This document shows positions 33,624 through 48,754 of a DNA stretch of 54,197 nucleotides, piece by piece. This stretch comes from Mycolicibacterium chubuense (GTDB lineage: Bacteria > Actinomycetota > Actinomycetes > Mycobacteriales > Mycobacteriaceae). The translations under genes were made by a program, and so were the position numbers. The stretch's first letter is position 1, and every line of letters starts with the position of its first letter. The stretch spans positions 1 to 54,197 of the forward strand of contig NZ_JYNX01000012.1 in the NCBI RefSeq assembly GCF_001044255.1, given 5' to 3'. A model generated the notes under the pieces. The model had not been told where the DNA came from and searched no databases. It saw only the letters and a program-made list of their open reading frames with translations.

Positions 33624-34094
33624 GTGGACTTGGCGAGCTGGAGCCTGGGGCTGTCGCTCATCGTGCTGACGATAGCGATCCACACGACGGCGGTGGTCGG
33701 GATGGCACTGGGACTCGAGAAGAGAGTGGCCGGCCGTTCGGGCGCTCTGGCGCCCACTCGGCGGAAAGCAATCCCGATCGTGATCATCCACATAGGGACC
33801 ATCGCCGTGCTTCTGGCTGCCCTTCACGGAGTCGAGGGCGTCATCTGGGCGGTGGCATACCGATGGCTCGGCATTTTCGATTCGTTCACCGATGCGTCCA
33901 CGTACTCGCTGGCAGCCATGACGACGTCCGAAACCTTGGCCGTGCCGCGCGCGTCGCGGTGGCCAATGCTCAGTGCGCTGGAAGCCGTCAACGGTGGGCT
34001 CCTGTTCGGGATCAGCACGGCCTTCCTCTTCGCTGTCATCCAGGTTCACTGGCAGACCCTCCTGCACCGGCGTCACACCTCCCCGGACCGCTGA
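33624..34094 (+). CDS. Small two-pore/Kv-channel-like membrane protein with non-canonical filter
   Basis: 156 aa, GTG 33624 with AGGGAGGAC directly upstream. Hydrophobic helices at about 5-27 and 48-68. A pore-loop-like segment DASTYSLAAMTTSETLAVP (about 90-108) precedes a final helix, MLSALEAVNGGLLFGISTAFLFAVIQ. The layout matches Ion_trans_2-type bacterial channel proteins, where the loop would read TTVGYGD; here it is TTSETL, so K+ selectivity is doubtful. It may conduct another ion or act as a sensor. Confidence 0.6.
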   Translation: MDLASWSLGLSLIVLTIAIHTTAVVGMALGLEKRVAGRSGALAPTRRKAIPIVIIHIGTIAVLLAALHGVEGVIWAVAYRWLGIFDSFTDASTYSLAAMTTSETLAVPRASRWPMLSALEAVNGGLLFGISTAFLFAVIQVHWQTLLHRRHTSPDR

Positions 34095-34197
34095 CTCGGA
34101 GCCCCGTCGGCTGCCGCGTTTTGCCGTTCCGCGAAGGCGTACCGGACTAGAATCTCCCGTGCGGGGAACAGTGTTCGATGATCGAGGGTGGTCCGGG

Positions 34198-35373
34198 ATG
34201 AAGTCATCGAACAAGAATGCGCGAGCTCGGATCGCATGCGCCGGCAGGACGTTGACGACCTTCGGCGTTGCGGCGGCGCTCGTCGGTGCGGTGACGATCG
34301 TTCCACCGTCTAATCCACCGCCACAGCGAACGGTGCCTGCGGTCGACCTCACCGCCGCCTACCTTCCCCTGGCACTGCAACAGCAGCTTCACGAGTTGAG
34401 TGCCCGCGCCGTCACCCTGCCACAGCAGCTGAATGAGGCTACCCCTGCGCCGAGCACGCGCCGGCCGACGTTTCCGACGCCACCCACTATCCCGCCGCCG
34501 GTGGTCACTGCCTTCGAGTTCGAAGACGCGATCATCAACACCTATCACGCCATCGAGCCCTGGGTTCGTTACGGATTCGAACTGGGGACCTACGTCGTCG
34601 GTTGGGTGCCGTGGGTGGGTTGGCTGGCGCCACAGATCATGATCTTCTACAACTTCGGCGAACGCATCGTCGAGAGTCTTGTGGTCAATTCGGCCAATTG
34701 GCTGTGGGGCCCGCTCCCCTTTGGCGAGGGTCTGGCCAACGTGGCGCGGGACAGCTGGAACGCTCTCGTGCAATTCGGCCGAGACGAATGGAACTTCTGG
34801 CTGCCACCGCTACCGCCTCTGCCTTTCACCGCCGACCAGACGGCAGATCCGACGCAAGACGGCATCGCGGGCACGGTCGACGAGTCAGCCGCTCCGTCGG
34901 CCGGGCGGCCGCACCCTGTTCGGGATGCCCTTGCCCGTCTGCTCCCAGCTCTCGATCCGGCCGCGCCGCACAAAGCACAGCGGCCGCGATGGTTCGACCG
35001 CATCGTCGGGCACCCCACCACTGCCGACGCCGAGGCTGCGACACCGATAGAGGATCCGGAAGGGCAGCCCGCACAGGTCGATTCGCACGACGGCAGCAGC
35101 GCCCTCACCGAGCCCGACCGGTCGGCCCCGGACGCGATGGATCCTTCCGATGCCTCCCCACACGAGGCGCGCTCGGCCGACACGGCCGACGACGAGAGCG
35201 CGAACATGGGCTCGCCGGATACCGATGGCGCCTCGCACGAAACTCGCTCAGACGACGGGGCGAACTCAAGGGCCTCCCGCACACCCCGTCTTCGCAACAC
35301 GCGGGATGGCGGCGGCAACGGCGTCCTGAACCGACATGCGCTCCGGGACTCCGGCGGTACCACGTCGGACTGA
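34198..35373 (+). CDS. Secreted Trp/Pro-rich mycobacterial protein of unknown function
   Basis: 391 aa from ATG 34198; TAGAAT at 34148-34153 is a likely -10. An N-terminal signal-like segment (about 12-40) is followed by a Pro-rich stretch. A conserved aromatic block, WVRYGFELGTYVVGWVPWVGWLAPQIMIFYNFGERIVESLV...WNFWLPPLPPLP (about 125-205), resembles a family of secreted mycobacterial proteins. The C-terminal half is low-complexity, rich in Asp, Ser, Ala and Pro. No catalytic motif; probably cell-envelope associated. It converges on the TetR gene with a 5-bp gap. Confidence 0.7.
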   Translation: MKSSNKNARARIACAGRTLTTFGVAAALVGAVTIVPPSNPPPQRTVPAVDLTAAYLPLALQQQLHELSARAVTLPQQLNEATPAPSTRRPTFPTPPTIPPPVVTAFEFEDAIINTYHAIEPWVRYGFELGTYVVGWVPWVGWLAPQIMIFYNFGERIVESLVVNSANWLWGPLPFGEGLANVARDSWNALVQFGRDEWNFWLPPLPPLPFTADQTADPTQDGIAGTVDESAAPSAGRPHPVRDALARLLPALDPAAPHKAQRPRWFDRIVGHPTTADAEAATPIEDPEGQPAQVDSHDGSSALTEPDRSAPDAMDPSDASPHEARSADTADDESANMGSPDTDGASHETRSDDGANSRASRTPRLRNTRDGGGNGVLNRHALRDSGGTTSD

Positions 35374-35378
35374 CCGGG

Positions 35379-36029
35379 TCAGCGCTGCGGCGCCGCGACC
35401 GCGTCGGCGAGCACCGCCGGAATCCCCGGCAGTCGGCCGACGCCGTCCATCAGGGTGTGCGCGCAGAGGTCGGCGATGAGGTCGACGTCCAGCGACGGGT
35501 CCATCAACCGCTGTCGGCACATCTCGAACGTGAACGCCAGCCAGCCGTACACCGTCGCGCGCAGGTCCCGCTCCACCTTGTCGTCCATCGGCCCGCCGAT
35601 GACGGCGGCCATCCGGCCGAGGATGCGGTCGGCCTGGCGGTCGTTGTCGATGTCCTCGATGCCCCGCAGCAGTGGATCCGTCCGGCCGATGCCCGTCGAC
35701 GCGGCCCACGCGCGGTGCGGATGTTCCTCGTCGTAGCGCAGGTACGCCAGCACTCCGAAGCGCACCTGCCCGAAGAGTGTCTGCCCGGGCAGCGGCGGTG
35801 TGTTGGTCGCTTCGAACAGGCGCTCACCTTCGGCGCGCACGACGGCGGCGAAGAAGGCTCGCTTGTCCGGGAAGTAGTGGTACATCAGTGCGCGGGAAAC
35901 CCCGGCCCGTTCGGCGATCTCGTCGATGCGGACGTTGTCGTACGGCCGCTGGCCGAACACCTCGGCGCCGAGTGCCAGCAGTTCGGTGCGGCGCGCGTCG
36001 GGTGACAGGCGTCGGCGTGGTCGCGCCAT
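35379..36029 (-). CDS. TetR-family regulator of the polyketide cluster
   Basis: 216 aa from ATG 36029 (MARPRRRLSPDARRTELLALG). HTH: VFGQRPYDNVRIDEIAERAGVSRALMYHYFPDKRAFFAAVV. The rest is a helical ligand domain. It is the last gene of the minus-strand row running from the halogenase-like enzyme and is separated from the antiporter by 50 bp. It is the natural candidate to sense the cluster product and control export. It also resembles M. tuberculosis TetR proteins in this chromosomal neighbourhood, so it could belong to the core genome. Confidence 0.87.
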   Translation of the reverse strand: MARPRRRLSPDARRTELLALGAEVFGQRPYDNVRIDEIAERAGVSRALMYHYFPDKRAFFAAVVRAEGERLFEATNTPPLPGQTLFGQVRFGVLAYLRYDEEHPHRAWAASTGIGRTDPLLRGIEDIDNDRQADRILGRMAAVIGGPMDDKVERDLRATVYGWLAFTFEMCRQRLMDPSLDVDLIADLCAHTLMDGVGRLPGIPAVLADAVAAPQR

Positions 36030-36079
36030 GACGCCGATCCTGACACATGTCCGACACCGGTCGAGCGCAGGCTCGCCGC

Positions 36080-37423
36080 CTAGGCCTGCGACGCCTCCCG
36101 GTCGGGTTGCACCCCGCTGGGGCCGAACCGCGCCCCGGTGCGCCTCAGCCGGCGCTCGAACAGTCGCTGCAGCGGTGTGGCGACGAACGTCGTGATGATC
36201 GTCATCACCGCCAGGATCGTGTACAGCTTGCCCGAGATCAGGCCCGCCTCCAGGCCGATGTTGAGCAGGATGAGCTCCATCAGGCCGCGGGCGTTCGCGA
36301 GTGCGCCCATCGACCCGGCCTCGTACCAGCTCATGCCCTGCCAGCGCGCCGCCAGCCCGACGGCGCCGAACTTCGCGGCGAACGACACCAGCAGCACGAT
36401 GGCCGCCATCAGCAGGGTGGAGCCGTCGAGGATCAGCGTCAGCTGAGTGTTCAGGCCCGAGTAGATGAAGAAGCCGGGCAGCAGCAGGTAGGCGGTCAGC
36501 GGTTCGAAGCGCTCCCGGACCGCGTCGAGCAGCGCGCCGCGCGGCATCACCAGCCCGGCCACGAAAGCGCCGAACACCGAATAGATGCCGACCAGGTCGG
36601 TGAACCAGCTCGCGGTCAGCACGACCAGCAGGATGATGCTCAGCTGCGCGATCGGCAGGCCGCCGGTGCGTTCGGTGTCGCCGCGGCGCGGCGTCCACGT
36701 CTCGAGGCGCGCCAGCAGCGGCCGGCCGAGATACACCATGAACAGCAGGTAGAGCAGACCGCCGCCGACGGCCACGACGGCGCCGAGCACGCTGCCCTTC
36801 GCCGTCGCCACCACGGTCGCCAGCAGCACCCACGAGCAGGCGTCGTCGACCGCCGCGCAGGACAGCGACATCGTGCCCAGCCGGGTGTTGAGCAACCCGG
36901 AGTCGTAGACGATCCACGCCAGCATCGGGAACGCGGTGATGGCTACGGCCGCCGCCACGAAGAGACCGCCCTGCCAATGCGCGACCTTGTCGGTGAAGTA
37001 GCCGCCGGAATCCACCATCCACCAGCCGAGCACACCGCCGAGGACCAGCGGGACGCCGATGCCGGCCGCCGACGTCGCGCCCGCCTGCCGGCTGTGCGCG
37101 CCGAGGATGTCGAGCTTGAACGACGAACCGACCAGGAACATGTAGAGCACGAGCCCGAGCTGGCCGACGACGTAGATGGCGACCAGGTTGGGATGCGTGA
37201 TGGTCTCGGCGCCGACGGTCAGCGTCTTGGGGAACAGCCAGTGCTGCGCGGCCGGCCACAGCCACCCGAGAACCGAAGGGCCGAGCAGGAATCCGGCCAC
37301 CATGATGGCGACCACCTGGACCTGGCCGAGGCGGCGGAACAGCGGCCACAGCAGCCGGTAGGTCGCCAGGATCACCACGATCTGCAGGAAGAAGTGGTAG
37401 GTGATGGTCAGCAGCGGCGGCAT
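36080..37423 (-). CDS. CPA2-type cation:proton antiporter
   Basis: 447 aa, about 12-13 hydrophobic segments. Family blocks: VAIMVAGFLLGPSVLGW near the N-terminus, GLVLYMFLVGSSFKLDIL, AITAFPMLAWIVYDSGLLNTRLGTMSLSCAAVDDACSWVLLA with the paired Asp of the transport site, and FGAFVAGLVMPRG. No RCK/TrkA domain at the C-terminus. It should exchange Na+ or K+ for H+ across the membrane. It starts one base after the permease stop codon, so it is translationally linked to the exporter, implying a joint role in export or self-protection. Confidence 0.9.
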   Translation of the reverse strand: MPPLLTITYHFFLQIVVILATYRLLWPLFRRLGQVQVVAIMVAGFLLGPSVLGWLWPAAQHWLFPKTLTVGAETITHPNLVAIYVVGQLGLVLYMFLVGSSFKLDILGAHSRQAGATSAAGIGVPLVLGGVLGWWMVDSGGYFTDKVAHWQGGLFVAAAVAITAFPMLAWIVYDSGLLNTRLGTMSLSCAAVDDACSWVLLATVVATAKGSVLGAVVAVGGGLLYLLFMVYLGRPLLARLETWTPRRGDTERTGGLPIAQLSIILLVVLTASWFTDLVGIYSVFGAFVAGLVMPRGALLDAVRERFEPLTAYLLLPGFFIYSGLNTQLTLILDGSTLLMAAIVLLVSFAAKFGAVGLAARWQGMSWYEAGSMGALANARGLMELILLNIGLEAGLISGKLYTILAVMTIITTFVATPLQRLFERRLRRTGARFGPSGVQPDREASQA

Positions 37424-37424
37424 G

Positions 37425-38282
37425 TCAGCGCTTCTCCGTCCATCGGAACACCCGCAGGCAGGCCAGCAGACCGACCACGGTCCACGCGGCCAGCACCAGG
37501 AAGATCCGCCCGTGCTCCCAGCTGCCGGCCGGCTCTGCGGTGACCATCTGTGGGGGGAGCAGCACCGACCGGAAACCCTGGGCCATCCACTTCACCGGGA
37601 ACAACGATCCGATGACGAGCATCCAGCCCGGGAGCATGATCAGCGGCACATAGGTGCCCGAGACGAACTGCAACCCGACCGCGGGGCCGTTGGTCAGCAC
37701 CGCCGCCGACACCGCGTTGTTCGCGATGTTGCTGACCAGCACCCCCAGCAGCGAACAGCTCGTGATGCCGAGCGCGAAAACCCAGCCCAGCGTCCACCAT
37801 TCGGCCAGGCCGGTCGGCAGCCGCAGACCGAACACGAGCACCCCGACGGCGAGCAGGATGACCGCCTCGGCGAGGCTGGCGATCGCGACCAGTGCGATCT
37901 TGCCGACGAAGTACGACGTGGCGGTCGCCGGGGTGCCGCGCAACCGGCGCAGCGCCCCGGTCTCGCGGTCGGCGGCGACGCTGATGCCCAGGTTGATGAA
38001 CGACGTCGAGAGGATGCCGTAGGCGAGCATGCTCGCCGCGATCACCGCTCCGGTGCTGACGTCGCTGCCGGGCATCGCCGCCGAGAAGATCGATCCGAGC
38101 AGCAGGCAGATGATCGCCGGCATCGAGAACGTCAGCACCACCTGCTCGGGGCGCCGGTAGAACATCTTGAGTTCCGGCACGATACGCGACACCCCGATGC
38201 GCAACGCCGAGGGCAGCGCAGGCGACGACGGGGCGGCACTGTGCCGGGCCCGTGCCGGCTGGTCGACACGGTTGGTCGCCAT
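37425..38282 (-). CDS. ABC-2-type exporter permease
   Basis: 285 aa from ATG 38282, overlapping the ATPase stop by one base (TGATG). Six hydrophobic segments; VVLTFSMPAIICLLLGSIFSAAMP, ISVAADRETGALRRLRGTPATATSYFVGKI and a late FVSGTYVPLIMLPGWMLVIGSLFPVKWMAQGF are typical of DrrB/ABC-2 permeases. It forms an efflux complex with the upstream ATPase. Substrate inferred to be the polyketide made by the adjacent synthase. Confidence 0.9.
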   Translation of the reverse strand: MATNRVDQPARARHSAAPSSPALPSALRIGVSRIVPELKMFYRRPEQVVLTFSMPAIICLLLGSIFSAAMPGSDVSTGAVIAASMLAYGILSTSFINLGISVAADRETGALRRLRGTPATATSYFVGKIALVAIASLAEAVILLAVGVLVFGLRLPTGLAEWWTLGWVFALGITSCSLLGVLVSNIANNAVSAAVLTNGPAVGLQFVSGTYVPLIMLPGWMLVIGSLFPVKWMAQGFRSVLLPPQMVTAEPAGSWEHGRIFLVLAAWTVVGLLACLRVFRWTEKR

Positions 38283-39133
38283 CACGGCTGCCCGATCAGG
38301 GTCAGATACGCGTCCTCGAGCGTGGGCCGGGTGACGGTGAGGTCGGTCATCTCGGTGCCGTCGGCCGACCGGGCCCGGATGAACTCGGTCGGGCGGTCGG
38401 TCTCCACGATGCGGGTCTCGCCGTGTTCTGTCCACCGCACCGTGGCCACCGAGTTCGCCTGCGCGGTCAGGCGTTCGGGCGTGTCGACAGCGACCACGCG
38501 GCCCCCGGCGATGACCGCGACGCGGTCCGCCAGCGTGGCGGCCTCCTCCAGGTAGTGGGTGGTGAGCACGATGGTGGTGCCGTCGGCGGCGAGAAGCCTG
38601 ATCAGATCCCAGAACTGGCGTCGCGCCTCCGGGTCGAAGCCGGTGGTCGGTTCGTCCATGAACAGCAGTTCGGGGGTGGCGATGATGCCGAGCGCGACGT
38701 CGAGCCGGCGGCGCTGGCCGCCCGACAGGGTCCGCACCCGGGAGTCTGCGGTCGCCGCGAGCCCGACGAGGTCGAGCACGTCGTCGGCCGCGCGGGCCCG
38801 TCCGTAGCACTGCCGGAACATCTGCACGGTCTCGGCGACGGTGAGCACGCCGAAGTCGCTGGCCTCCTGCAGCACGATGCCGATCTTGGCCCGCCACTGC
38901 CGATCCGCGGTCCCGGGATCTTCGCCGAGCACCCTTACCTGCCCGGCATCCCGCGCGCGGTGTCCCTCGAGGATCTCGATGGTCGTCGACTTGCCCGCGC
39001 CGTTGGGTCCCAGGATCGCGACGATCTCGCCGTACGCGACGTCCAGGTCGACGTCGCGGACGGCGGCCAGCCGGCCGTAGGACTTGCTGAGCCCCCGGAC
39101 ATGGACGGCAGGCGCCTGATCTGCCGCGGTCAC
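38282..39133 (-). CDS. ABC exporter ATP-binding protein (DrrA-like)
   Basis: 283 aa, GTG 39133, two bases after the PKS stop. Walker A ILGPNGAGKSTT (about 41-52), signature RTLSGGQRRRLDVALGI, Walker B ELLFMDEPTTGFDPEAR, H-loop VLTTHYLEEA. The C-terminal extension (about 215-283) resembles the regulatory tail of DrrA-type drug exporters. It powers the downstream ABC-2 permease. Confidence 0.93.
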   Translation of the reverse strand: MTAADQAPAVHVRGLSKSYGRLAAVRDVDLDVAYGEIVAILGPNGAGKSTTIEILEGHRARDAGQVRVLGEDPGTADRQWRAKIGIVLQEASDFGVLTVAETVQMFRQCYGRARAADDVLDLVGLAATADSRVRTLSGGQRRRLDVALGIIATPELLFMDEPTTGFDPEARRQFWDLIRLLAADGTTIVLTTHYLEEAATLADRVAVIAGGRVVAVDTPERLTAQANSVATVRWTEHGETRIVETDRPTEFIRARSADGTEMTDLTVTRPTLEDAYLTLIGQP

Positions 39134-39135
39134 CG

Positions 39136-42100
39136 CTAGCCGGCCCCTTCCAGGTCGTCGAGCAAGGCACGCAGTTCGTCGTCGGACAGCGTCTCGATCA
39201 GGCGGTCGAAGTCTTCTGCGGGATCCGCGGTCTCGGCGTCATGGCCGGCGGCCTCGGCCTCGCTGTCCGCGTGGATCTGCCGGAGCTCGGAGAGTATCCG
39301 TGCCGCCAGCGAGTTCACGCTGACACCGCGCAGGATCTCGAGCACCGGCAAGTCGATGGAGAACATGCTGTTCACCCGCACCCGGAACTCCATCGCCATC
39401 ATCGAGTCCAGGCCCAGGTCGTCGAGCATCACCTCGGGATCGATATCGCCTGGTGCGCAATCGAACACGTTGGCCACCACCGTACGGACGTGTTCGGTCA
39501 CGACGCCGAGCCGTTCGTCATCGGGGGTGGCGGCCAGGATGTCGATGATCGAGGCCCCTCCGGCGTCCCCGCCTGCGCCGCCGGTGTCCTGGAGGTCGCC
39601 GAAGATCGCCGGCAGGTGGGCGCTGAAGCTGGACTGGCGGGCGCGCCCCCAGTCGGCGGTGATCGCGACGACGTGCGGCGTCTTCTGTGCGAGGAGCCGA
39701 TCGAGGATCCGCACGCCCGCGCCGGGGGTGATCAGCTCGATGCCCCGCTGCGCATAGATCCGTTCCAGCTTCAGCTCCTCGACCATGCCGACCGACCACG
39801 GACCCCAGCCGATCGTCAACGCGGGCAGCCCGCGCAGCCGCCGGTAGTGTGCGAAGGCGTCGAGGTAGGCGTTGGCGGCGGCGTAGTTGCCCTGCCCGGG
39901 GGAGGCGATCACCGAGCCTGCCGATCCGAACATCACGAAGAACTCGAGCTCGGCCTTCTCGAAGGCGTTGTGCAACAGCCGGGTTCCGATGACCTTGGGG
40001 GCCATCACGGTGGCGAAATCCTGCTCGGTCATATTCACCAGCAACCGGTCGTCGACCGATCCGGCGGCGTGCACGATGCCACGGATGGGCGGCAGGCCGC
40101 CCTGCAGGTACTCGTCGCGCCAGCGTTCGACCTGCTCGGCATCGGTGATATCGACGGCGGCGCAGCGCACCTGGGCGCCGAGGCGTTCGATCCGGCGGAT
40201 CGTCTCGACGGTCGCGGCATGCGGGTCATCCTGCGGCAGATGCGGCCACAGGGCGCGGGCGGGGATCTTCCGGCGGCTCAGCAGCGTGATGTGCCGCGCA
40301 CCGCGCTCGGCGAGGTAGAGGGCGACGCTGCGGCCGAGCGCTCCGGTGCCGCCGGTGACGACGTAGGTGGCGTTGGCGCTCAGCTTGGTCGGGAACGGCT
40401 TGGTCAGCGTCGCGCAGGGACGCAGGCGGGGCGCCAGCGTGGTGTCGCCCCGCAGCGCGATCTGATCCTCGCCGTCGGTGCCGAGTAGGTGCCGGCAAAG
40501 CCGTCCGGCGGTCAGGTCCACGTCGTCGGTGTCGTCGATGTCGACCAGTCCGCCCCACAGTTCGGGGAATTCCTGGTGTCCGATGACCCGGCCCAGACCC
40601 CACACGGTGGCCTGGTCGACCGCCAGTTCCTCGGTGCCCAGCGCCGGTTGCGCGTTGGCGGTGACCACGTGCAGGCGCGGCTTGGCCCCGTCGAGTTGGG
40701 CGAGCGCGTTGACCAGGTGCAGCAGCGTGATGACACCGAGCCGGTCGTCGGAGCCGGCGTAGATGTCCACGGGCCAGAGGTCGATGACGCCGGTCAGGGC
40801 GCCGTCCCGTGCGGCCAGCACGGCGAGGAGTTCCCGAACCTGTTCTGCCCGTTGCGGGTTGACGGCGTACCCCTCGTCGACCTCGGTGAGGGCGTCGACG
40901 GGTTGGTGTATGACCTCGCAGACGCGGTGCCCGCGTGCGCGCAGTTGCCGACCGAGTGCCGCGCCGAATCCGACGGTGTCGTCGAAGATCAGCCACGAGC
41001 CGTCCTCGGCCTCCTTGGCCTCCTCGGCCTCAGCGATCGCCGGAAGTGCTTGCCACTGCACCTCGTAGAGGCCGCGGTCGATGCGCTCGGTCGACATCGC
41101 CGAGGATGCGCTGAGCGACTGGACCGTGAACCCGTGCAGCACCGCCAGGGTCTCGCCGAGCCGGTCGACGATCGTGATGTCGCTCTCGATCTCCTCCCGC
41201 CCGGCCGACACGACGCGCACGTGGACCGTCATGTCCTGTTGCGGCCTGCCGTAGACGGCGCTGTGCCGCACGCGCGTCGGGAGATAGGTGCCTGCGTCCG
41301 CCCCGGTGACGGCTGTCGTGCCGAACAGCGTCTGGAACGCGCCGTCGATCAGCGCGGGATGGAAGTGGAAGTCCTCGACATCGGTGGCGACCCCGGCCGG
41401 GACGGCGAGTTGCGCTCTGGCCCAGCCCTCGCCGCCGGCGACGTCACGCACCGAGCGGAACACCTCTCCGTACTCGAAGCCGAGCGACGCGGTGCGGGCG
41501 TAGAACTCGTCGGCGCTGAGGTGTACCGCGGCCCGGTCGTCGGTGGCGACGTCGTGCGCGGGCGGCGAGCCGAGGGTGTTGAGTTCGGCGGTGGCAGTCA
41601 CCGTCCACCCGAAGTCGCCGTCGCCGATCGCGGTGAACGCGGTGAACTCGATCGTGCCCTTGGCCTCGTCGAGGGTCGTCCGCACGACGGGGTCGCAGGT
41701 GTCGTCCAGGATCAGGGCGCGATGCAGCACGAGATCGTCGACGCTGCAGGCAGATCCGTACGTCACCGACGCTGCGGCCAATGCCATCTCGAGGAACACG
41801 GCGCCGGGGACCACCACGGTGCCCTGAACCTGGTGGTCGGCCAGGAACGGCAGCGCGGCGGTGCTGAGCTCGACCTCCCACGCCGGGTGTGCGCCCGCCA
41901 CCGGCTGTCCCAGCAGCGGATGCACCGGCTGGTAGTGCAGGTCCTCGGCCGCCTCTGGGGTCTCGTTCCAGTACCGCTTGGACTGCCACGGGTAGGTCGG
42001 CAGCCCGACGAGGCGCGCACCGTCGGCGGGATGCACCGTCTCCCAGTCGATGTCGTGGCCGTGGCTGTGCACGGTGGCGACGCAGTTCATCAGGGTGCGG

Positions 42101-44634
42101 GCGTCGTCGTCGCCGCGCCGCTGGCTCGGCACCGTGAGCACGCGTTGGGACCCGGCGATCTCCAGCAGTGACGCGGCCAGCACGGGGTGCGGGCCCAGCT
42201 CCACGAAATGGGTGTAGCCGTCGTCGAGCATCCGGCGCGCGGCGGCTTCGAAAAGCACGGTGGCGCGGGTGTTCTGCCACCAGTAGGCGGCGCCGGCGGC
42301 GTAGTCGGTGAGCCGTTCGCCGGTGACGGTCGAGTACAGCGGGAGGGTCGCCGTCGCCGACGACAGGCCGTCGAACGCCGCGTACAGGTCCTCTCTCACG
42401 GTGTCCATGTAGTGCGTGTGATACGGCACCTTCACGGCGAGGTAGCGGTTGAAGATCTGCGCCTCGTCGAGTTGACGGACGATCTCGGCGAGGACGTCTT
42501 CGTCACCGGCGATCGTCACCGCGTGCGGGCTGTTGATCGCCGCGACGGACACCCGATGGCCGAATTCCGCGGCGCTGGCGGGATCGATCGTCTGCATCAG
42601 CGCTTCGGCGCCGAGGCCCACGGCGACCATTCGGCCCAGACCGGTGGTGCGTTGCTGCAGCCGGCTGCGGTGGTAGATCACCGACACGGACTGCTCGAAG
42701 GTGAGCAGCCCGGCGAGATGGTGCGCGGCCACCTCGCCGGCACTGTGCCCGATCACCGCGTCGGGCACCACACCGAAGTGGCGCAGCTGTTCGGCCAGCG
42801 CGATCTGGATCGCGAAATTGGCCGGCTGCGCGACCTCGGTCTCACCCATCCGGGTCGAGTCGTCGTCGCGCCGCAGCTCTTCCAGCAGTGACCAGCCGCT
42901 GTGGCGGGCGAACTCGCGGTCGGTGCGTTCGATGCTGGCGGTGAAGACGGGGTAGACGTCGAGCAGCCCCCGGCACATCTGCGCCCACTGCGGACCCATG
43001 CCGGTGCAGACGAACGCCAGCTTCGGCGTCTCCGGCCCCGAGCGTCCGAGGACGGCCTGGCCGCCGCCGGCGGCCAGGGCGTCGAGCTGATCGCGGGCGT
43101 CGTCGATGCCGTCGACGGTCAGGGTGCGGCGGTAGCTCAGGTGCGATCGGCGCCGACTCAGGGTGTAGCCCAGGTCGGCCAGCGCCAGATCCGGTTGCGC
43201 GCGAAGGTGATCGGCGAGCTGGCGGGCCGTGGCGGTCAGCGCCTCCTCGGAGCGCGCGGACAGGGGCAGCAGCGTCAGGGCCGGGTCCTGACGAGGCTCA
43301 CGTGGAGCAGGGGCGGTCGGCGGTTCGGCGAGCACGACGTGGGCGTTGGTCCCGCCGAACCCGAACGAGTTCACGCCGGCGACGCGCCGCTTCCCGCCCG
43401 GGAACGGCTGCGCGGTGCGCGGGACGTCGAGATGCAGTTCGGCCAGTGGGCTGCTCGGGGTGGTCAGGTGCAGGCTCGCCGGGATCGTCCCGTGCTGCAG
43501 CGCCAGCGCGGCTTTGATCAGCCCCGCGACGCCCGCGCCGGCCTCGAGGTGGCCGATGTTGGTCTTCACCGAGCCGATCAGCAGCGGGTCGTCGGCGGAA
43601 CGGTCGGCGGCGAGCGCACCGGCCAGCGCCCGCGTCTCGACGGGGTCGCCCACCGGGGTTCCGGTGCCGTGCGCTTCGACATAGCCGACGTCGCCGGGCT
43701 GCACACCGGCCCGCTGCAACGCGGTGGTGATCGCTGCCCGTTGGGCGTCTTCGCTCGGCACCGTGATGCCGTCGGTGTGTCCGTCCTGGGTGACCGCGGT
43801 GCCGAGGATCTGGGCGTAGATGTGGTCGCCGTCGCGCAACGCCTCGGACAGGGGTTTGATGACGACGACGGCGCCGCCCTCGCCGCGGGCATAGCCGTCG
43901 GCGGATTCGTCGAAGGCCTTGCAGCGGCCGTCGGGGCTGAGGAAGCCGCTCTTGGATTCGGCGATCGCGGTGTTGGGGCCGACGATGATGTTGACCCCGC
44001 CGGCCAGCGCGAGCTCGCAGTCGCCGTTCCAGATACTCTGTGCGGCAAGGTGAACGGCGACCAGCGAGCTGGAGCAGGCGGTGTCGATCGCCATGCTCGG
44101 GCCGCGGAAGTCGAACGCGAACGAGATCCGGTTCGCGAGCATCGTCATCATCATCCCGGTCGCGGAATGCGGCTTGAAGCGGAACCGGCTGGTGCGGCCC
44201 TGGTTCTGCAGGAGCTGATAGTCGAGCGTGAAGCCGCCGATGAACACGCCGACGTCGGTGCCGGCCAGTCCTTCTGCGGGGATGCCGCCGTCTTCGAGCG
44301 CCTCCCAGGTGGCGTGCAGGAGCAGGCGCTGCTGGGGATCGAGCAGGTTCGCCTCGCGCGGCGAGATGCCGAAGAACGCGGCGTCGAACTGGTCGATCTC
44401 CTCGAGGTATCCGCCGCGGCGGGTGACCATCTTGCCGGCCTTGCCCGGATGCGGATCGTGGAATCGGGGTGCGTACCAGCGCGATTCGGGGACCTCGCGG
44501 GTGGCGTCGGTCTCACTCAGCAGGAGCCGCCAATAGTCCTGCGGCGAGTCGACTCCGCCGGGCAGGCGGCATCCGATGCCGACGATCGCCAGCGGCTCCC
44601 GGTGCTGGTCGGCAGGTTCGGTCATGCCTGTCAT
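39136..44634 (-). CDS. Single-module type I polyketide synthase, KS-AT-DH-KR-ACP
   Basis: 1832 aa from ATG 44634, overlapping the halogenase-like stop (ATGA). KS about 12-440 with Cys187 (DTACSSS), His322 (VEAHGTGT) and His362 (TNIGHLEAG). AT about 540-860 with Ser631 in GHSAGE; its specificity segment reads PYHTHYMD, neither classic malonyl nor methylmalonyl. DH with HQVQGTVVVP and LIDGAFQ. KR with VTGGTGALG, AAGSVDDRLL and the Ser/Tyr/Asn set in GSAGSV...GQGNYAAANAYLD. ACP with LGLDSMMAMEF near the end. There is no ER and no thioesterase. The layout matches iterative partially reducing synthases (6-methylsalicylate type) but could also be a one-step extender. It is cotranscribed with the halogenase-like gene and an exporter. 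Confidence 0.95.
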   Translation of the reverse strand: MTGMTEPADQHREPLAIVGIGCRLPGGVDSPQDYWRLLLSETDATREVPESRWYAPRFHDPHPGKAGKMVTRRGGYLEEIDQFDAAFFGISPREANLLDPQQRLLLHATWEALEDGGIPAEGLAGTDVGVFIGGFTLDYQLLQNQGRTSRFRFKPHSATGMMMTMLANRISFAFDFRGPSMAIDTACSSSLVAVHLAAQSIWNGDCELALAGGVNIIVGPNTAIAESKSGFLSPDGRCKAFDESADGYARGEGGAVVVIKPLSEALRDGDHIYAQILGTAVTQDGHTDGITVPSEDAQRAAITTALQRAGVQPGDVGYVEAHGTGTPVGDPVETRALAGALAADRSADDPLLIGSVKTNIGHLEAGAGVAGLIKAALALQHGTIPASLHLTTPSSPLAELHLDVPRTAQPFPGGKRRVAGVNSFGFGGTNAHVVLAEPPTAPAPREPRQDPALTLLPLSARSEEALTATARQLADHLRAQPDLALADLGYTLSRRRSHLSYRRTLTVDGIDDARDQLDALAAGGGQAVLGRSGPETPKLAFVCTGMGPQWAQMCRGLLDVYPVFTASIERTDREFARHSGWSLLEELRRDDDSTRMGETEVAQPANFAIQIALAEQLRHFGVVPDAVIGHSAGEVAAHHLAGLLTFEQSVSVIYHRSRLQQRTTGLGRMVAVGLGAEALMQTIDPASAAEFGHRVSVAAINSPHAVTIAGDEDVLAEIVRQLDEAQIFNRYLAVKVPYHTHYMDTVREDLYAAFDGLSSATATLPLYSTVTGERLTDYAAGAAYWWQNTRATVLFEAAARRMLDDGYTHFVELGPHPVLAASLLEIAGSQRVLTVPSQRRGDDDARTLMNCVATVHSHGHDIDWETVHPADGARLVGLPTYPWQSKRYWNETPEAAEDLHYQPVHPLLGQPVAGAHPAWEVELSTAALPFLADHQVQGTVVVPGAVFLEMALAAASVTYGSACSVDDLVLHRALILDDTCDPVVRTTLDEAKGTIEFTAFTAIGDGDFGWTVTATAELNTLGSPPAHDVATDDRAAVHLSADEFYARTASLGFEYGEVFRSVRDVAGGEGWARAQLAVPAGVATDVEDFHFHPALIDGAFQTLFGTTAVTGADAGTYLPTRVRHSAVYGRPQQDMTVHVRVVSAGREEIESDITIVDRLGETLAVLHGFTVQSLSASSAMSTERIDRGLYEVQWQALPAIAEAEEAKEAEDGSWLIFDDTVGFGAALGRQLRARGHRVCEVIHQPVDALTEVDEGYAVNPQRAEQVRELLAVLAARDGALTGVIDLWPVDIYAGSDDRLGVITLLHLVNALAQLDGAKPRLHVVTANAQPALGTEELAVDQATVWGLGRVIGHQEFPELWGGLVDIDDTDDVDLTAGRLCRHLLGTDGEDQIALRGDTTLAPRLRPCATLTKPFPTKLSANATYVVTGGTGALGRSVALYLAERGARHITLLSRRKIPARALWPHLPQDDPHAATVETIRRIERLGAQVRCAAVDITDAEQVERWRDEYLQGGLPPIRGIVHAAGSVDDRLLVNMTEQDFATVMAPKVIGTRLLHNAFEKAELEFFVMFGSAGSVIASPGQGNYAAANAYLDAFAHYRRLRGLPALTIGWGPWSVGMVEELKLERIYAQRGIELITPGAGVRILDRLLAQKTPHVVAITADWGRARQSSFSAHLPAIFGDLQDTGGAGGDAGGASIIDILAATPDDERLGVVTEHVRTVVANVFDCAPGDIDPEVMLDDLGLDSMMAMEFRVRVNSMFSIDLPVLEILRGVSVNSLAARILSELRQIHADSEAEAAGHDAETADPAEDFDRLIETLSDDELRALLDDLEGAG

Positions 44635-46391
44635 CGTGCCGCTGCGGTGCACAGAACCCAGTCGGTGCTGATCGGGTTGATCGCCTGCTGCTCGCGGTAC
44701 ACCGACCGGAGTTCGCGCAGCAACGAATCCCGCTGCCACGCCTGGGCCTGGGCCATCACGTCGTCGTCGGAGAAGCGCGACGCCTTGTCGGTGAGCACCT
44801 CGTCGATCACCTGGCCGGCGACCTGACGCAGCAGCAGCGCATTGGCGTCGAACTGCTCACGCACCGCCGTGGACGTTCCCATCATCGAATGATGCAGTGT
44901 CGCCATGAAGTTCAGCGGCACGTACAGGTCGACGAACCGCGGCGGGGAGGGGTCGTGCTCGACGGCGGCCCACTCGCGCAGGAACTGCTGCATGCGGTTG
45001 CTCAGGTCGATCAGCCCCTGCAGGTACGGCACGAGTTCGGGATCGTCGGCGACCTGTGTGAATCGGTCGTTGCTGTAAAGGAATCCGATGAAGCCCCAGT
45101 AGAACGCGATGTCCCAGATGACCTTGACCGCCATCACCGTCGGCGAGCCCATCAGCACGTACTGATCGCGGTAGATGTTGCACCACATGTCGGTCAGCGA
45201 GCGGAACAGGGAGTCGCTGATGGCCGCGCGGGCGACCACGTCGGCGCCGTCTAGCTCGCGGGTGATCAGGTCGGTGACCAGTCCGTTGCCGATCGCGACC
45301 AGGTCCAGCCCCGACGAGTAGAGCGGATCGAGGAAGACGCCCGCGTCACCGGTGAGGCACCAGCGGCTCTGTCCGTCGTAGACCTTGTCGACGGTGTGGC
45401 TGTAGTTCTTCATCACCCGGAAGTCCTGGATCTGCTCGGCGTGCTCGTCGAGCACCGCGGCGCACTGCGGTTCGTGCCGGCGCAGCCAGGTCATCGCCTT
45501 GTCCAGGGTGTTGTACTCGTCGAAGGGGTGGAACGCCGGGTCGGCCACGATGCCGACGCTGGTGGCGCCGGAGGCGAGCCGGATCAGCCACACCCAATAG
45601 CCCTCGCCCATCAGGTGATTGGTCGAGAATTCGCGTCGGCCCTCGGTCAGCCGGGAATGCCAGGTCGGGTCGTCGCTCCAGCCGCCGACGTCGATCTCGG
45701 TCTTGATGCGCAGCCACGCCGCGCTGCACTGGTGTCCGTTGGCGCGCTTGAGATCCAGTTCGCGGGGGAGCAGCCGGTTGCGGCCGGACGCGTCGACCAC
45801 CCAGCGGGCGGTGGTCTCGGTGACGTCGTCGTCGCGCTGGATGGACAGCCGGTGCGGCGCGGTACCGGCGCCGAGGTCCACCGACCGGACGCGGCCGGTG
45901 GCGAACGCGACACCGTCGGCGACGCAGCGGCGGTAGAGCTCGTTCTCCAGCCGGCCGCGGTCGATCTGATAGGTGGTCTGCGGCACGAACGCGCTGCTGC
46001 CGACCTCCACCCGCTGGGCGATGTCGGTGTTGCCGTTGTTGGTGAAGAACATCCGCAGCCCCATCTTGCGCAGCTGGGCGTCCTGCAGGTGGTCGGCCAG
46101 GCCGAGCCGGTCACGCAGATAGTGCGCGGAGATCTCGACCGTGGACTCACCGACGGTGTGGGTGATCTCGGGCACGGGGTGCGGTGTCGGCTCGACGACC
46201 AGGACCCGGGTGCCCGGCCGCTCGGAGCGCAGTTGCAGCGCCAGCGTCAGGGCCGCGACACCGCCGCCGATGATCGCGACGTGGTGCTCGCTCGGGTCGT
46301 CGCCGGCCGCGGCCAACCGCGATTTGATGCGTCGGGCGAGAGCGTCCCGTGCCTTGTCATCGAGTTGCGACACCTGCGCTCGCACGTCCAC
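44631..46391 (-). CDS. Flavin-dependent halogenase-like FAD monooxygenase
   Basis: 586 aa, GTG 46391 with AGGAAAGGACG upstream. FAD fold HHVAIIGGGVAALTLALQL (37-54); GESTVEIS at 81-88 corresponds to the halogenase GEST loop. Lys109 in RKMGLRMFF aligns with the catalytic lysine of flavin halogenases. The halogenase WxWxIP block is present as WVWLIR (266-271) with Arg for Pro; GDAGVFLDPLYSSGLDLV follows. The C-terminal 200 residues are helical. Halogenation or related hydroxylation of the PKS-bound or released product is inferred. First gene of the six-gene row. Confidence 0.8.
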   Translation of the reverse strand: MDVRAQVSQLDDKARDALARRIKSRLAAAGDDPSEHHVAIIGGGVAALTLALQLRSERPGTRVLVVEPTPHPVPEITHTVGESTVEISAHYLRDRLGLADHLQDAQLRKMGLRMFFTNNGNTDIAQRVEVGSSAFVPQTTYQIDRGRLENELYRRCVADGVAFATGRVRSVDLGAGTAPHRLSIQRDDDVTETTARWVVDASGRNRLLPRELDLKRANGHQCSAAWLRIKTEIDVGGWSDDPTWHSRLTEGRREFSTNHLMGEGYWVWLIRLASGATSVGIVADPAFHPFDEYNTLDKAMTWLRRHEPQCAAVLDEHAEQIQDFRVMKNYSHTVDKVYDGQSRWCLTGDAGVFLDPLYSSGLDLVAIGNGLVTDLITRELDGADVVARAAISDSLFRSLTDMWCNIYRDQYVLMGSPTVMAVKVIWDIAFYWGFIGFLYSNDRFTQVADDPELVPYLQGLIDLSNRMQQFLREWAAVEHDPSPPRFVDLYVPLNFMATLHHSMMGTSTAVREQFDANALLLRQVAGQVIDEVLTDKASRFSDDDVMAQAQAWQRDSLLRELRSVYREQQAINPISTDWVLCTAAAR

Positions 46392-46712: not shown

Positions 46713-47396
46713 TCAGGCGGGGCGGTGCACGGCGATCAGCGCGTCGGCCTGCCGGGCGCACCGTCGTAGCGCGGCGAGGTCGCGGATCGTCACCCCGTGG
46801 TCGTCGAGGGTGATCCAGCCGTTGGCGACGAAGGCCGCGAGCGCGTCGGTGCCGGAGGTGTGCCCGGCGCCGGCCAGCTGGGTGAGGTCGTCGTTGTGCA
46901 GCCCGCACGCGATGTGCACGGTGCCGTCACTGCGGGTGTCGAAGCGCGACGCGAGGTGCACGAGCTGTCCGGCGATCCGGCCGGCGACCCCGGTCGACGC
47001 GAAGCCCACCAGCTGCGCCTCCACGTCGTCGAGCCGCTCGGTCAGCCGTTCGAGCAGCAACCAGCACCACTGCGGGTCGTCGGTGAGCACGGCGCGCAGC
47101 ATCTGCCGCGGGACCCTGGTGGCGATCACGCGGGACAGCGCGGTCGCCGTGCTGGTGCGCGGCCCGGGATCGAAGACGGCGAGCTCACCGAGCACGTCGC
47201 CGGGGCCGAGCACGGCCATCAGGAAGTCGCGGCCGTCGTGGCTGCGGCGTGAGACGCGGACGTGGCCGCTGCGGATGACGAGCATGTGATCGCCGGGATC
47301 ACCCTCACCGAAGATCACGGTCGACTCTCCGAACATCACGTCCGCGTTCAACCGGTCGAGCTCGCGCAGCTGCGCACGGTCGAGACGGCCCTTCAT
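46713..47396 (-). CDS. Crp/Fnr-family regulator
   Basis: 227 aa from ATG 47396. A cyclic-nucleotide-binding-type beta-roll (about 15-115) contains FGEGDPGDHMLVIRSGHVRVSRRS and LGPGDVLGELAVFDPGPRTSTATA. A dimer helix follows, then an HTH with LHNDDLTQLAGAGHTSGTDALAAFVANGWITLDDHGVTI. The GELAVFDPGPRTSTA loop resembles the cNMP phosphate-binding cassette, so cAMP binding is possible. No Fnr cysteines. Divergent from a CMD/AhpD-like gene across a palindrome at 47433-47448. Confidence 0.88.
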   Translation of the reverse strand: MKGRLDRAQLRELDRLNADVMFGESTVIFGEGDPGDHMLVIRSGHVRVSRRSHDGRDFLMAVLGPGDVLGELAVFDPGPRTSTATALSRVIATRVPRQMLRAVLTDDPQWCWLLLERLTERLDDVEAQLVGFASTGVAGRIAGQLVHLASRFDTRSDGTVHIACGLHNDDLTQLAGAGHTSGTDALAAFVANGWITLDDHGVTIRDLAALRRCARQADALIAVHRPA

Positions 47397-47432
47397 GGTT
47401 CACGACGCTACGAAGGGGGCCTCTACCGCATA

Positions 47433-47448
47433 AGGGCCTTTCGGCCCT
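47433..47448. promoter_or_regulatory. DosR-like palindrome between divergent genes
   Basis: AGGGCC-TTTC-GGCCCT is centred between the Crp-like start (47396) and the AhpD-like start (47483). It resembles variants of the DosR/DevR box (GGG.C..T...GNCCC), but it could equally be the Crp-like protein's own site. Confidence 0.45.
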
Positions 47449-47482
47449 CGCCGCCTGCGTCAATGGGCCTCAGACTCTCGGC

Positions 47483-47842
47483 ATGGACGACCATGGGCAT
47501 CATCACGACGTTCTCAACGACCTGCGGCCGCAGCATCGCGCGCTGCGGCAGATGATTCCGGACGTCTACAAGGGGTTCGCCGCGTTGAGCGAGGCGGCGC
47601 TCGTCGACGGTGCCTTGAGTCAGAAGGTCAAGGAGCTGATGGCGATGACGATCGGGATCGTGCACGGCTGCGACGGCTGTATCGCCTCGCACGCGCGGTC
47701 GGCCGCGCGTGCCGGTGCCACCTCAGAGGAGGCTGCCGAGGCCATCGGCGTGACGATCATGATGCACGGCGGCCCGGCGACCATTTACGGAGCACGGGCG
47801 TACTCGGCGTTCTGCGAGTTCGTCGGAGACGGCGCCGGATAG
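47483..47842 (+). CDS. Carboxymuconolactone decarboxylase/AhpD-like protein
   Basis: 119 aa, ATG 47483. All-helical CMD domain with the redox motif CDGCIASHARSAARAG (Cys-x-x-Cys and His), as in AhpD-like alkylhydroperoxidases. It likely reduces peroxides or acts as a thiol adaptor. N-terminal MDDHGHHHD is His-rich. It converges with the downstream SDR with a 12-bp gap. The palindrome upstream suggests regulation by redox or hypoxia signals (inference). Confidence 0.88.
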   Translation: MDDHGHHHDVLNDLRPQHRALRQMIPDVYKGFAALSEAALVDGALSQKVKELMAMTIGIVHGCDGCIASHARSAARAGATSEEAAEAIGVTIMMHGGPATIYGARAYSAFCEFVGDGAG

Positions 47843-47854
47843 GCTCGCCGCTCG

Positions 47855-48664
47855 TCAGAACGCGCGCAATGTCCGCTGGTAGCGCCGCATCCCGGAGATC
47901 CAACGGTCGTAGTCGCCGCCCTTGTGCCGGTACATCCCCAGCAGCTCGGCGTGGGGCAGCACCATGAACCGGTCGGCGAGCATCGCGTCGATCGTCGCGG
48001 TCGCGACGTCGGCCGCGCTGATCACCGAGGCAGACTGCTCGACCGACGACGCCCCGAGCCGGCCATCGGGATCGTCGGTGCTCCGGACCGCCTGCAGCAG
48101 CGGTGTTTCCACCCCGAGCGGGCACACACAGCTGACACCGATGCCGTCGTCGCCGTAGGTGATGGCAAGCCACTCGGCGAACCCGACCGCCGCATGCTTG
48201 CTCACCGCGTATCCGGCCGCGCCGAGTTGCGTCAGCAGTCCCGCCGCCGACGCCACCGCCACGAAGTACCCGGAGCCCCGCGACTGCCAGTGCGGGACAA
48301 CCAGTCTCGCCGCTCGGATGTGCGCGCGCAGGTTCACGTCGAGGATGACGTCCCAGTCGGCTTCGGACCCCAGTCCCGGGGCCCCCATGACGCCGGCATT
48401 GGCGACGTAGATGTCGACCGGATCGAACTCCCGACTGGCCAGCGTGATCATGCCTTCGATGTCGACCACGTCGGCAGCGTCCGCCCGCAGCGCCACCGCC
48501 TGGCCTCCGGCCGAGCGGATCGCCTCCGCCGTCGCGTGCGCGTTCTGCTCGTCGAGGTCGCCGACGACCACCCGCACTCCGCGCTGCGCGAGACCGTCGG
48601 CGATCGCCGCCCCGATTCCTGAGCCTGCGCCCGTGACGATCGCGACCTTGCCGTCCAATTCCAT
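47855..48664 (-). CDS. SDR-family oxidoreductase
   Basis: 269 aa from ATG 48664 (MELDGKVAIVTGAGSGIG); a GTG at 48730 would add 22 unrelated residues. VANAGV, catalytic Ser in VAVASAAG, YAVSKHA Tyr-Lys, and CPLGVETPLL after the active site. The C-terminus, LPHAELLGMYRHKGGDYDRWISGMRRYQRTL, is typical of mycobacterial SDRs that act on bulky or lipid substrates. Convergent with the AhpD-like gene. Substrate unknown. Confidence 0.87.
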   Translation of the reverse strand: MELDGKVAIVTGAGSGIGAAIADGLAQRGVRVVVGDLDEQNAHATAEAIRSAGGQAVALRADAADVVDIEGMITLASREFDPVDIYVANAGVMGAPGLGSEADWDVILDVNLRAHIRAARLVVPHWQSRGSGYFVAVASAAGLLTQLGAAGYAVSKHAAVGFAEWLAITYGDDGIGVSCVCPLGVETPLLQAVRSTDDPDGRLGASSVEQSASVISAADVATATIDAMLADRFMVLPHAELLGMYRHKGGDYDRWISGMRRYQRTLRAF

Positions 48665-48754
48665 GTGCTGATTGTCGACTGCGAGCGTGCGTGAACTCCC
48701 GGTCTGAGGCGGCGTGTCGGCCGCAGACACGCCCGCTCGCGCGCAAAGGGGCCT

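Follow-up and report, generated by a model that had tools for sequence, protein, structure and literature searches.

What is the product of a compact group of genes in Mycolicibacterium chubuense that places a polyketide synthase (PKS) next to a halogenase-like flavin enzyme, an exporter and an ion antiporter? The genes occupy positions 35379-46391 of the window analysed here, which is a whole contig (NZ_JYNX01000012.1, 54,197 nucleotides) of the 5.95-Mb genome. To our knowledge, the compounds for which mycobacteria are known are lipids and siderophores and do not include halogenated polyketides, and a literature search, which reached few subscription papers, revealed no described mycobacterial pathway that combines a halogenase with a PKS. 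The initial annotation had proposed a single six-gene cluster. The observation turned out to be broader, as five of the genes form a cassette that is conserved in mycobacteria. With a probability of roughly 55%, this is a self-contained cassette for a small halogenated polyketide, and its five genes probably make, halogenate and export this predicted product. The genes are listed here in the direction of transcription.

44631-46391, minus strand: enzyme of the flavin-dependent halogenase family, 586 aa, with the FAD motif GGGVAA, Lys109, WxWxIR and FLDPLYSSG (Pfam Trp_halogenase, PF04820)
39136-44634, minus strand: single-module type I PKS with ketosynthase (KS), acyltransferase (AT), dehydratase (DH), ketoreductase (KR) and acyl carrier protein (ACP) domains, 1832 aa, malonyl-type AT motifs (Pfam)
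38282-39133, minus strand: ATPase of an ABC exporter, DrrA-like but below the DrrA cut-off (Pfam ABC_tran)
37425-38285, minus strand: ABC-2 permease, DrrB-like but below the DrrB cut-off (Pfam ABC2_membrane)
36080-37423, minus strand: CPA2-type cation:proton antiporter, type A of the two types found in such clusters (Pfam Na_H_Exchanger)
35379-36029, minus strand: TetR-family regulator, accessory (Pfam TetR_N)

Gene order, strand and spacing were verified from the open reading frame (ORF) coordinates and are as initially annotated. The halogenase and PKS genes overlap by 4 nt, and gaps of 2, 1 and 50 nt separate PKS and ATPase, permease and antiporter, and antiporter and TetR gene, respectively. 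The annotated overlap of 1 nt between ATPase and permease holds for the permease start at ATG 38282, while a start at GTG 38285 gives 4 nt.

A Five-Gene Unit Is Conserved in the Genus

A sample of 198 genomes of the genus, including that of the window, was searched for the halogenase gene (E <= 1e-30), and the gene was present in 56 of them. The 58 matches in these genomes were free of internal stops, and two genomes carry the gene in two pieces on separate contigs. Regions were fetched from 40 of the 56 genomes (left out were the window's own and 15 others), and the genes for halogenase, PKS, ATPase, permease and antiporter were found in all 40; in one region (L069) the PKS match was devoid of the first 232 residues. 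The clustering of 445 flanking ORFs from 58 named mycobacterial loci, from which the closest relative (L101) was left out and for which a simple gene finder was used that small genes may escape, yielded no flanking family that occurred in more than six loci. Because all 40 regions hold the five genes and no flanking family recurs in more than six loci, the five genes stay together in differing surroundings. The dN/dS ratios were 0.06-0.30 per gene in comparison with five relatives that have the same antiporter type; in comparison with M. gordonae (L092), a carrier of the other type, they were 0.21-0.27 for the four other genes and 0.48 for the antiporters, which are not orthologous. On these three grounds, i.e., completeness, changing flanks and low ratios, a chance cluster was rejected.

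The TetR gene has a different distribution. It was matched in one of the 40 regions at 1e-15 (L033) and in one of 82 loci at 1e-8 (L101). It is thus restricted to the closest relatives and was rejected as a core part, so that of the six annotated genes five remained as the conserved unit.

Among named carriers, M. chlorophenolicum DSM 43826 (L101) is the closest, with a halogenase that is 99% identical to that of the window. This species, which was named after the degradation of chlorophenol, thus likewise carries a cassette of the halogenase family. Other named carriers include M. gordonae and M. neoaurum. In a phylum-wide sample the halogenase family was restricted to the genus at 1e-80 (4/396 genomes, including the own genome), and in a family-wide sample it was found at 1e-60 in 16 of 301 genomes and 4 of 31 genera.

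On one side the cassette is flanked in the window (46713-50305) by a Crp-family regulator, a short-chain dehydrogenase/reductase (SDR) and an additional minus-strand ORF (48755-50305). Among the 40 fetched regions the Crp gene was kept in L033 only and the SDR gene in L033-L035. On the other side, right past the TetR gene, a proline-rich plus-strand ORF of 466 aa (33973-35373) had no Pfam or NCBIfam match.

The Flavin Enzyme Groups With Carrier-Protein Halogenases

The flavin enzyme matched Pfam Trp_halogenase with 42.3 bits (cut-off 21). When a 37-row profile of its family was compared with the PDB, 20 of the 21 best matches were named halogenases, and the remaining one was 3nix, an uncharacterised flavoprotein. 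PltA (5e-31) and CmlS (3e-29) were far ahead of the first monooxygenase-type match (7e-7) and of QhpG (0.0022), and a phmmer search likewise put halogenases (PltA, CmlS, ChlB4 and others) and 3nix on top. The initial call of a flavin-halogenase-like enzyme thus held, and a grouping with non-halogenating monooxygenases, which would have spoken against it, was not observed with this profile.

In the FAD motif GGGVAA (residues 42-47), which fits GxGxxG, G42 and G44 were invariant in the 37 rows, and G43 and A46 nearly so. K109 was invariant in the same rows and aligned with a lysine of CmlS, ChlB4 and 3nix; it was also present in 103 of 103 mycobacterial rows covering the site and in 49 of 49 outside rows of at least 300 aa. 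A catalytic lysine is described for halogenases in PMC9469721, and we infer that Lys109 is its counterpart. WxWxI was found in every row of at least 300 aa that covers the site. The motif FLDPLYSSG, which has the pattern F..P..S.G, was present in all 103 mycobacterial rows covering it; in the 49 outside rows F was found in 43, P in 47, and S and G in 49; in some outside paralogues F is replaced by S, or P by A.

The window enzyme thus shares with PltA, CmlS and ChlB4 the family by profile, the FAD motif, the lysine, the WxW pair and F..P..S.G. In contrast to them it has WxWxIR. Furthermore, its GESTVE corresponds to a GES that lacks VE in the aligned chains, and its YSSGLD to FSSGV or similar letters. 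Because the PDB profile ranks halogenases first, and because of the Lys109, WxWxI and F..P..S.G patterns, the enzyme represents a distinct halogenase subfamily with putative activity, which groups with these three carrier-protein-dependent flavin halogenases.

The Polyketide Synthase Is Separate From the Other Synthases of the Genome

Pfam verified the annotated domain order KS, AT, DH, KR and ACP in one protein, and enoylreductase (ER) and thioesterase (TE) domains were without a Pfam match in the PKS, also as annotated. The catalytic residues of all five domains were conserved in 95% or more of 93 rows, which overlap between two fetch routes; in the KR motif "VDD" the second position was variable. 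The AT has the motifs GHSAGE and VPYH, which we take to indicate the use of malonyl units.

KS trees were calculated with 53 rows, from which references for 6-methylsalicylic acid synthase (6-MSAS) were absent. The cluster KS was found in a clade (support 98/92) together with a Tsukamurella synthase fused to a nonribosomal peptide synthetase (PKS-NRPS), Streptomyces NBC_01471, NBC_01237 and one Paenibacillus KS. Within this clade only NBC_01471 has a readable context, which resembles that of polycyclic tetramate macrolactams (PTM), and NBC_01237 is an unannotated near relative of it. A narrower clade of cluster, PTM and Tsukamurella KS was rejected (p-AU 0.012), and the Paenibacillus KS falls inside it in the tree. 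Ten of the eleven other KS of the same genome were away from the cluster KS, and the eleventh (L160) was long-branched and just outside the clade. One clade of the cluster KS and the own-genome KS, which themselves form several lineages, was rejected with a p-AU of 1e-9. Therefore, an ordinary mycobacterial lipid Pks was rejected, and a grouping of the KS with such synthases, which had been named initially as a possible refutation, was not found. Enediyne PKSs were distant in the trees.

The clusters of NBC_01471 and Eleftheria terrae, presumably of the type of PTM and heat-stable antifungal factor (HSAF) on account of a sterol desaturase, a PKS(-NRPS) and FAD oxidoreductases, share with the cassette a synthase with homologous KS-AT-DH-KR-ACP (39-40% identical, with 92-98% of the query covered), and NBC_01471 also the KS clade, while the Eleftheria KS is outside the tree. 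They differ in that the cassette has a halogenase and an antiporter and is devoid of the NRPS part, the sterol desaturase and the FAD oxidoreductases; neither a fused or adjacent NRPS module nor PTM tailoring genes were found in the conserved five-gene unit. The PKS is probably iterative, as judged from its clade. PTM-type synthases make polyenes, and since the KS groups with them, a polyene is proposed. In Eleftheria terrae the KS matches in two pieces (L183, 12031-13304), and the incomplete plasmid table has no coding sequence there, which could be due to a frameshift or a sequencing error.

Curated NCBIfam models gave lower scores than their cut-offs for the PKS (Pks2 1027 of 2400 bits, Pks13 776 of 2100 bits) and for the exporter (DrrA 234 of 312 bits, DrrB 50 of 223 bits). 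Because these models, and also that of CmlS (see below), matched below the cut-offs, the names are not usable as family labels. Of the annotated DrrAB-type exporter, the ABC ATPase and the ABC-2 permease were thus supported by Pfam, while the DrrAB label was not.

The Antiporter Is Exchanged, but Not Missing

A telling part of the cassette is the antiporter, to which the initial annotation had given no weight. It matched Pfam Na_H_Exchanger (PF00999) with 170.5 bits (cut-off 26.2) and three solved Na+/H+ antiporter chains (best 4bwz, 3e-9), and it was below the cut-off of the narrower CPA2 model TIGR00932 (117 of 238). At E <= 1e-60 it was found in the same 56 of the 198 genomes as the halogenase and in none of the 142 others (lists compared by eye); the hypergeometric probability is 1e-50, for linked genes in related species that are not independent.

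Two non-orthologous types exist. Type A, in 20 genomes, is 83-100% identical to the antiporter of the window, and type B, in 36, is 42-47% identical; one type B copy, that of G121, is interrupted by a stop. The types also differ in position: type A (16 of the 40 fetched regions) follows downstream of the permease gene, and type B (the other 24) lies upstream of the halogenase gene. When mapped on a tree of the halogenases from 60 named loci, the types need five changes, three of them forced by well-supported branches, and without three outside rows four changes, again three forced (quick trees). As the types switch on this tree and none of the 56 genomes is without an antiporter, it was exchanged, but not missing.

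Antiporters with 73-77% identity are also found within halogenase clusters of other genera of the family and of Pseudonocardiaceae; in two of these clusters (L202, L203) the PKS is of quite another kind. These two represent a second cluster type that shares the antiporter (73-75% identical), with a KS-AT-DH-methyltransferase-ER-KR-ACP-TE synthase (Pfam on L203), a halogenase-family gene, an SDR, an AMP-ligase, a hydrolase and a 4HBT thioesterase. In one genome (G452) an antiporter with 62-64% identity lies among PKS genes, beside only a distant flavoenzyme (26%).

Related Antiporters Often Stand Near Halogenases in Other Bacteria

A sample of 15 Trp_halogenase genes (E <= 1e-80) was drawn from 394 class-level genomes without regard to antiporters. 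A CPA2 antiporter was present within 8 kb of seven of them and within 1 kb of six (gaps 177-917 bp). From 24 such antiporters in 109 Mb (14 genomes), 0.017 were expected within 1 kb, and P(>=6) is 3e-14, which is overstated because the 14 genomes are related. One of 14 control stretches held an antiporter (L199), and this one adjoins a halogenase cluster. An antiporter that generally accompanies PKSs is less likely, as by eye none of the 24 was within 8 kb of a KS among the KS matches listed, which are well short of 401.

Eight annotated plasmid regions with relatives of the antiporter were read, in addition to two unannotated ones. In three Streptomyces plasmids with one cluster type, Trp halogenase, flavin reductase and antiporter are consecutive, and in two Sphingomonas plasmids a Trp halogenase is adjacent to the antiporter or 0.8 kb off. 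In an S. xanthophaeus plasmid an FAD oxidoreductase that matches the halogenase at 25% adjoins the antiporter, and in Janthinobacterium the antiporter adjoins a halogenase homologue.

Several published clusters have similar pairs. The chloramphenicol cluster has the halogenase CmlS and the Na+/H+ antiporter CmlN; deletion of the antiporter gene cut production to about 40% in an S. coelicolor host, and the authors suggest that it drives export (PMC4249514). The likeness to the cassette, i.e., a halogenase and an ion antiporter in one cluster, is by description, and the scaffold is unrelated. In bis-indole clusters the antiporters ClaT, AbeT, AtmB and RebT are described, and the cladoniamide/BE-54017 pair of ClaH halogenase and ClaT resembles the cassette, again by description only; it differs in its tryptophan halogenase, the bis-indole product and the presence of the flavin reductase ClaF (PMC3158105). 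Further cases are StaN and noc4/dbv35 from clusters for glycopeptides (PMC11727664, PMC8291499), acmU, whose cluster has two halogenases (PMC4257720), flH in fluorinase clusters (PMC3999930), and a cation/H+ antiporter that is present in one gausemycin cluster and missing from that of strain B188M101 (PMC12471526). These antiporters are likened to that of the cassette by description, and none of the cited passages states a general partnership; a word search in the available parts of PMC9469721 and PMC8269204 gave no mention of an antiporter. A literature search for self-resistance by the antiporter also gave nothing. The observed neighbourhoods suggest a partnership of the antiporter with halogenation, and this link may be general.

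Relatives Outside the Genus

Paralogues of the halogenase family, two or three per genome, were found in Lentzea (L131), a Pseudonocardiaceae strain (L124), Nocardia amamiensis (L132) and three genomes of the window's family (G446, G426, G363). L124, L131, L132 (partial), G446 and G426 have a type A antiporter, either within the same stretch or at a distance of a few kb, while G363 has only a 35% relative. The same kind of PKS is present in L124, L197 and L198, and in L197 a thioesterase gene adjoins it.

In L124 and L131 proteins with DUF1702 (by Pfam) stand beside the halogenase paralogues, so that three halogenase-family genes, the type A antiporter and DUF1702 proteins are found together; L132 has an ORF that resembles DUF1702 proteins, by its start alone. 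DUF1702 stands with a type I PKS in enediyne cassettes on plasmids of S. clavuligerus and S. goshikiensis, the former also with a protein annotated as UnbU, and a figure legend of PMC7692728 describes it in enediyne cassettes. The likeness to such cassettes lies in DUF1702 of the Lentzea and Pseudonocardiaceae relatives; in contrast, the KS of the window is distant. No DUF1702 match was found in the window's genome, and control genomes gave no match either.

In planctomycete metagenome-assembled genomes (L142, L144, L147, L148, L149, L152) a PKS with two KS domains is followed by two tandem halogenase-family genes; an AMP-ligase is upstream in L144, the sole one examined for it. In four metagenome-assembled genomes of Deltaproteobacteria (L134, L135, L136, L138) the halogenase-family gene adjoins an SDR gene, with no PKS match in the stretch.

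Proposed Function and Alternatives

A halogenated polyketide is supported because the FAD enzyme groups with carrier-protein halogenases and the KS is apart from the other Pks of the genome. The PKS would iterate on malonyl units, as its clade indicates, and would form an ACP-bound chain. Because it is processed by KR and DH only, the chain would be unsaturated and, in line with the KS relatives, polyene-like, and not a saturated lipid. Related halogenases act on carrier-bound substrates. The flavin enzyme would draw FADH2 from a reductase of the host and, with O2 and halide, would act via Lys109 to halogenate the chain while ACP-bound or after release. The release of the chain would proceed without a TE of the cassette, and the ABC pair would export the product. 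The antiporter, as the statistical link to halogenases indicates, may support halogenation or product tolerance, via halide, proton or cation homeostasis or by driving export.

Several results weigh against this proposal. No product of the cassette is reported, and a flavin reductase, a thioesterase, a cyclase and a loading enzyme were not found among the five genes (ORFs and Pfam). In NCBIfam the enzyme reached 74 of 900 bits with the CmlS model, and the monooxygenase QhpG was level at 77 bits. In 103 of 104 mycobacterial rows (82 distinct sequences) the motif is WxWxIR (WVWLIR) and not WxWxIP, the exception being M. asiaticum (L102), while the next residue after WxWxI is P in 44 of the 49 outside rows. 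Concerning the antiporter, two copies in the window's family, one with 78% identity (G402; L218, 12726-14117) and the second one of G463 (57-58%; L222, 9277-10728), are without a halogenase-family or PKS match in stretches of 19.5 kb, 8 of the 15 Trp-halogenase loci are without an antiporter within 8 kb (several are cut by contig ends), and two of the eight plasmid relatives (Caballeronia NK8, Novosphingobium EMRT-2) have no halogenase as a neighbour. Because of the copies in G402 and G463, the tie of the antiporter to halogenation does not hold in every genome.

The deviating WxWxIR, the parity of QhpG with CmlS and the missing reductase would also fit a halogenase-fold monooxygenase or epoxidase that has lost halogenation, in a cassette for an oxygenated polyene. 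This is unlikely, as the lysine and the WxW pair are present in all rows covering the sites and F..P..S.G in all such mycobacterial rows, the PDB profile favours halogenases, and antiporter relatives are enriched near halogenases. Somewhat less improbable, though still clearly a minority view, is a halogenated aromatic acid, made by an iterative PKS of the 6-methylsalicylate or orsellinate type and chlorinated by the halogenase. 6-MSAS has the anatomy KS-AT-DH(TH)-KR-ACP, and the PKS has the same order and a similar size; furthermore, the solved proteins closest to the flavin enzyme include ChlB4 and PltA, two halogenases of aromatic groups. However, the KS groups with PTM-type and PKS-NRPS synthases (in a tree without 6-MSAS rows), no 6-MSAS was named among the 60 listed of 75 PDB matches, nor was there a named reference among the plasmid matches examined, and two outside relatives carry the DUF1702 of enediyne cassettes. 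Hence, of the small iterative halogenated polyketide proposed initially, the halogenated polyketide was supported, while its 6-methylsalicylate-like character was weakened. Mycobacteria use PKSs together with transporters for lipids, a pairing that would suit an envelope-lipid locus in which the ABC pair moves a cell-wall lipid made by the PKS, and MAS came first when the whole PKS was compared with the PDB. Such a locus is nevertheless very improbable in view of the KS tree, the PKS without an ER match, the missed Pks2 and Pks13 cut-offs, the presence in only 56 of 198 genomes and the conserved unit, in which no acyl-ligase or acyltransferase gene was found (the window itself was not searched for one).

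Beyond the halogenated polyketide itself, it is tempting to speculate that the antiporter is a partner of halogenation as such (halide, proton or cation balance) and does not confer resistance to one product, because relatives of it are found with halogenases whose chemistries are unrelated and because it is exchanged and not lost in the mycobacterial cassette. The halogenase subfamily (GESxVE, WxWxI[P/R]) might halogenate polyenes of iterative PKSs, a chemistry that would be shared with the DUF1702 relatives and the planctomycete tandems. This extended proposal is tentative and has odds well below even.

With five genes in 56 of 198 genomes, the cassette is small enough for expression and testing as a whole. 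It makes testable why ion antiporter genes accompany halogenating enzymes of such unrelated chemistry as those of chloramphenicol, bis-indoles, glycopeptides, ascamycin and the fluorinase cluster, and with its two interchangeable antiporters the mycobacterial cassette represents a natural experiment on this question.

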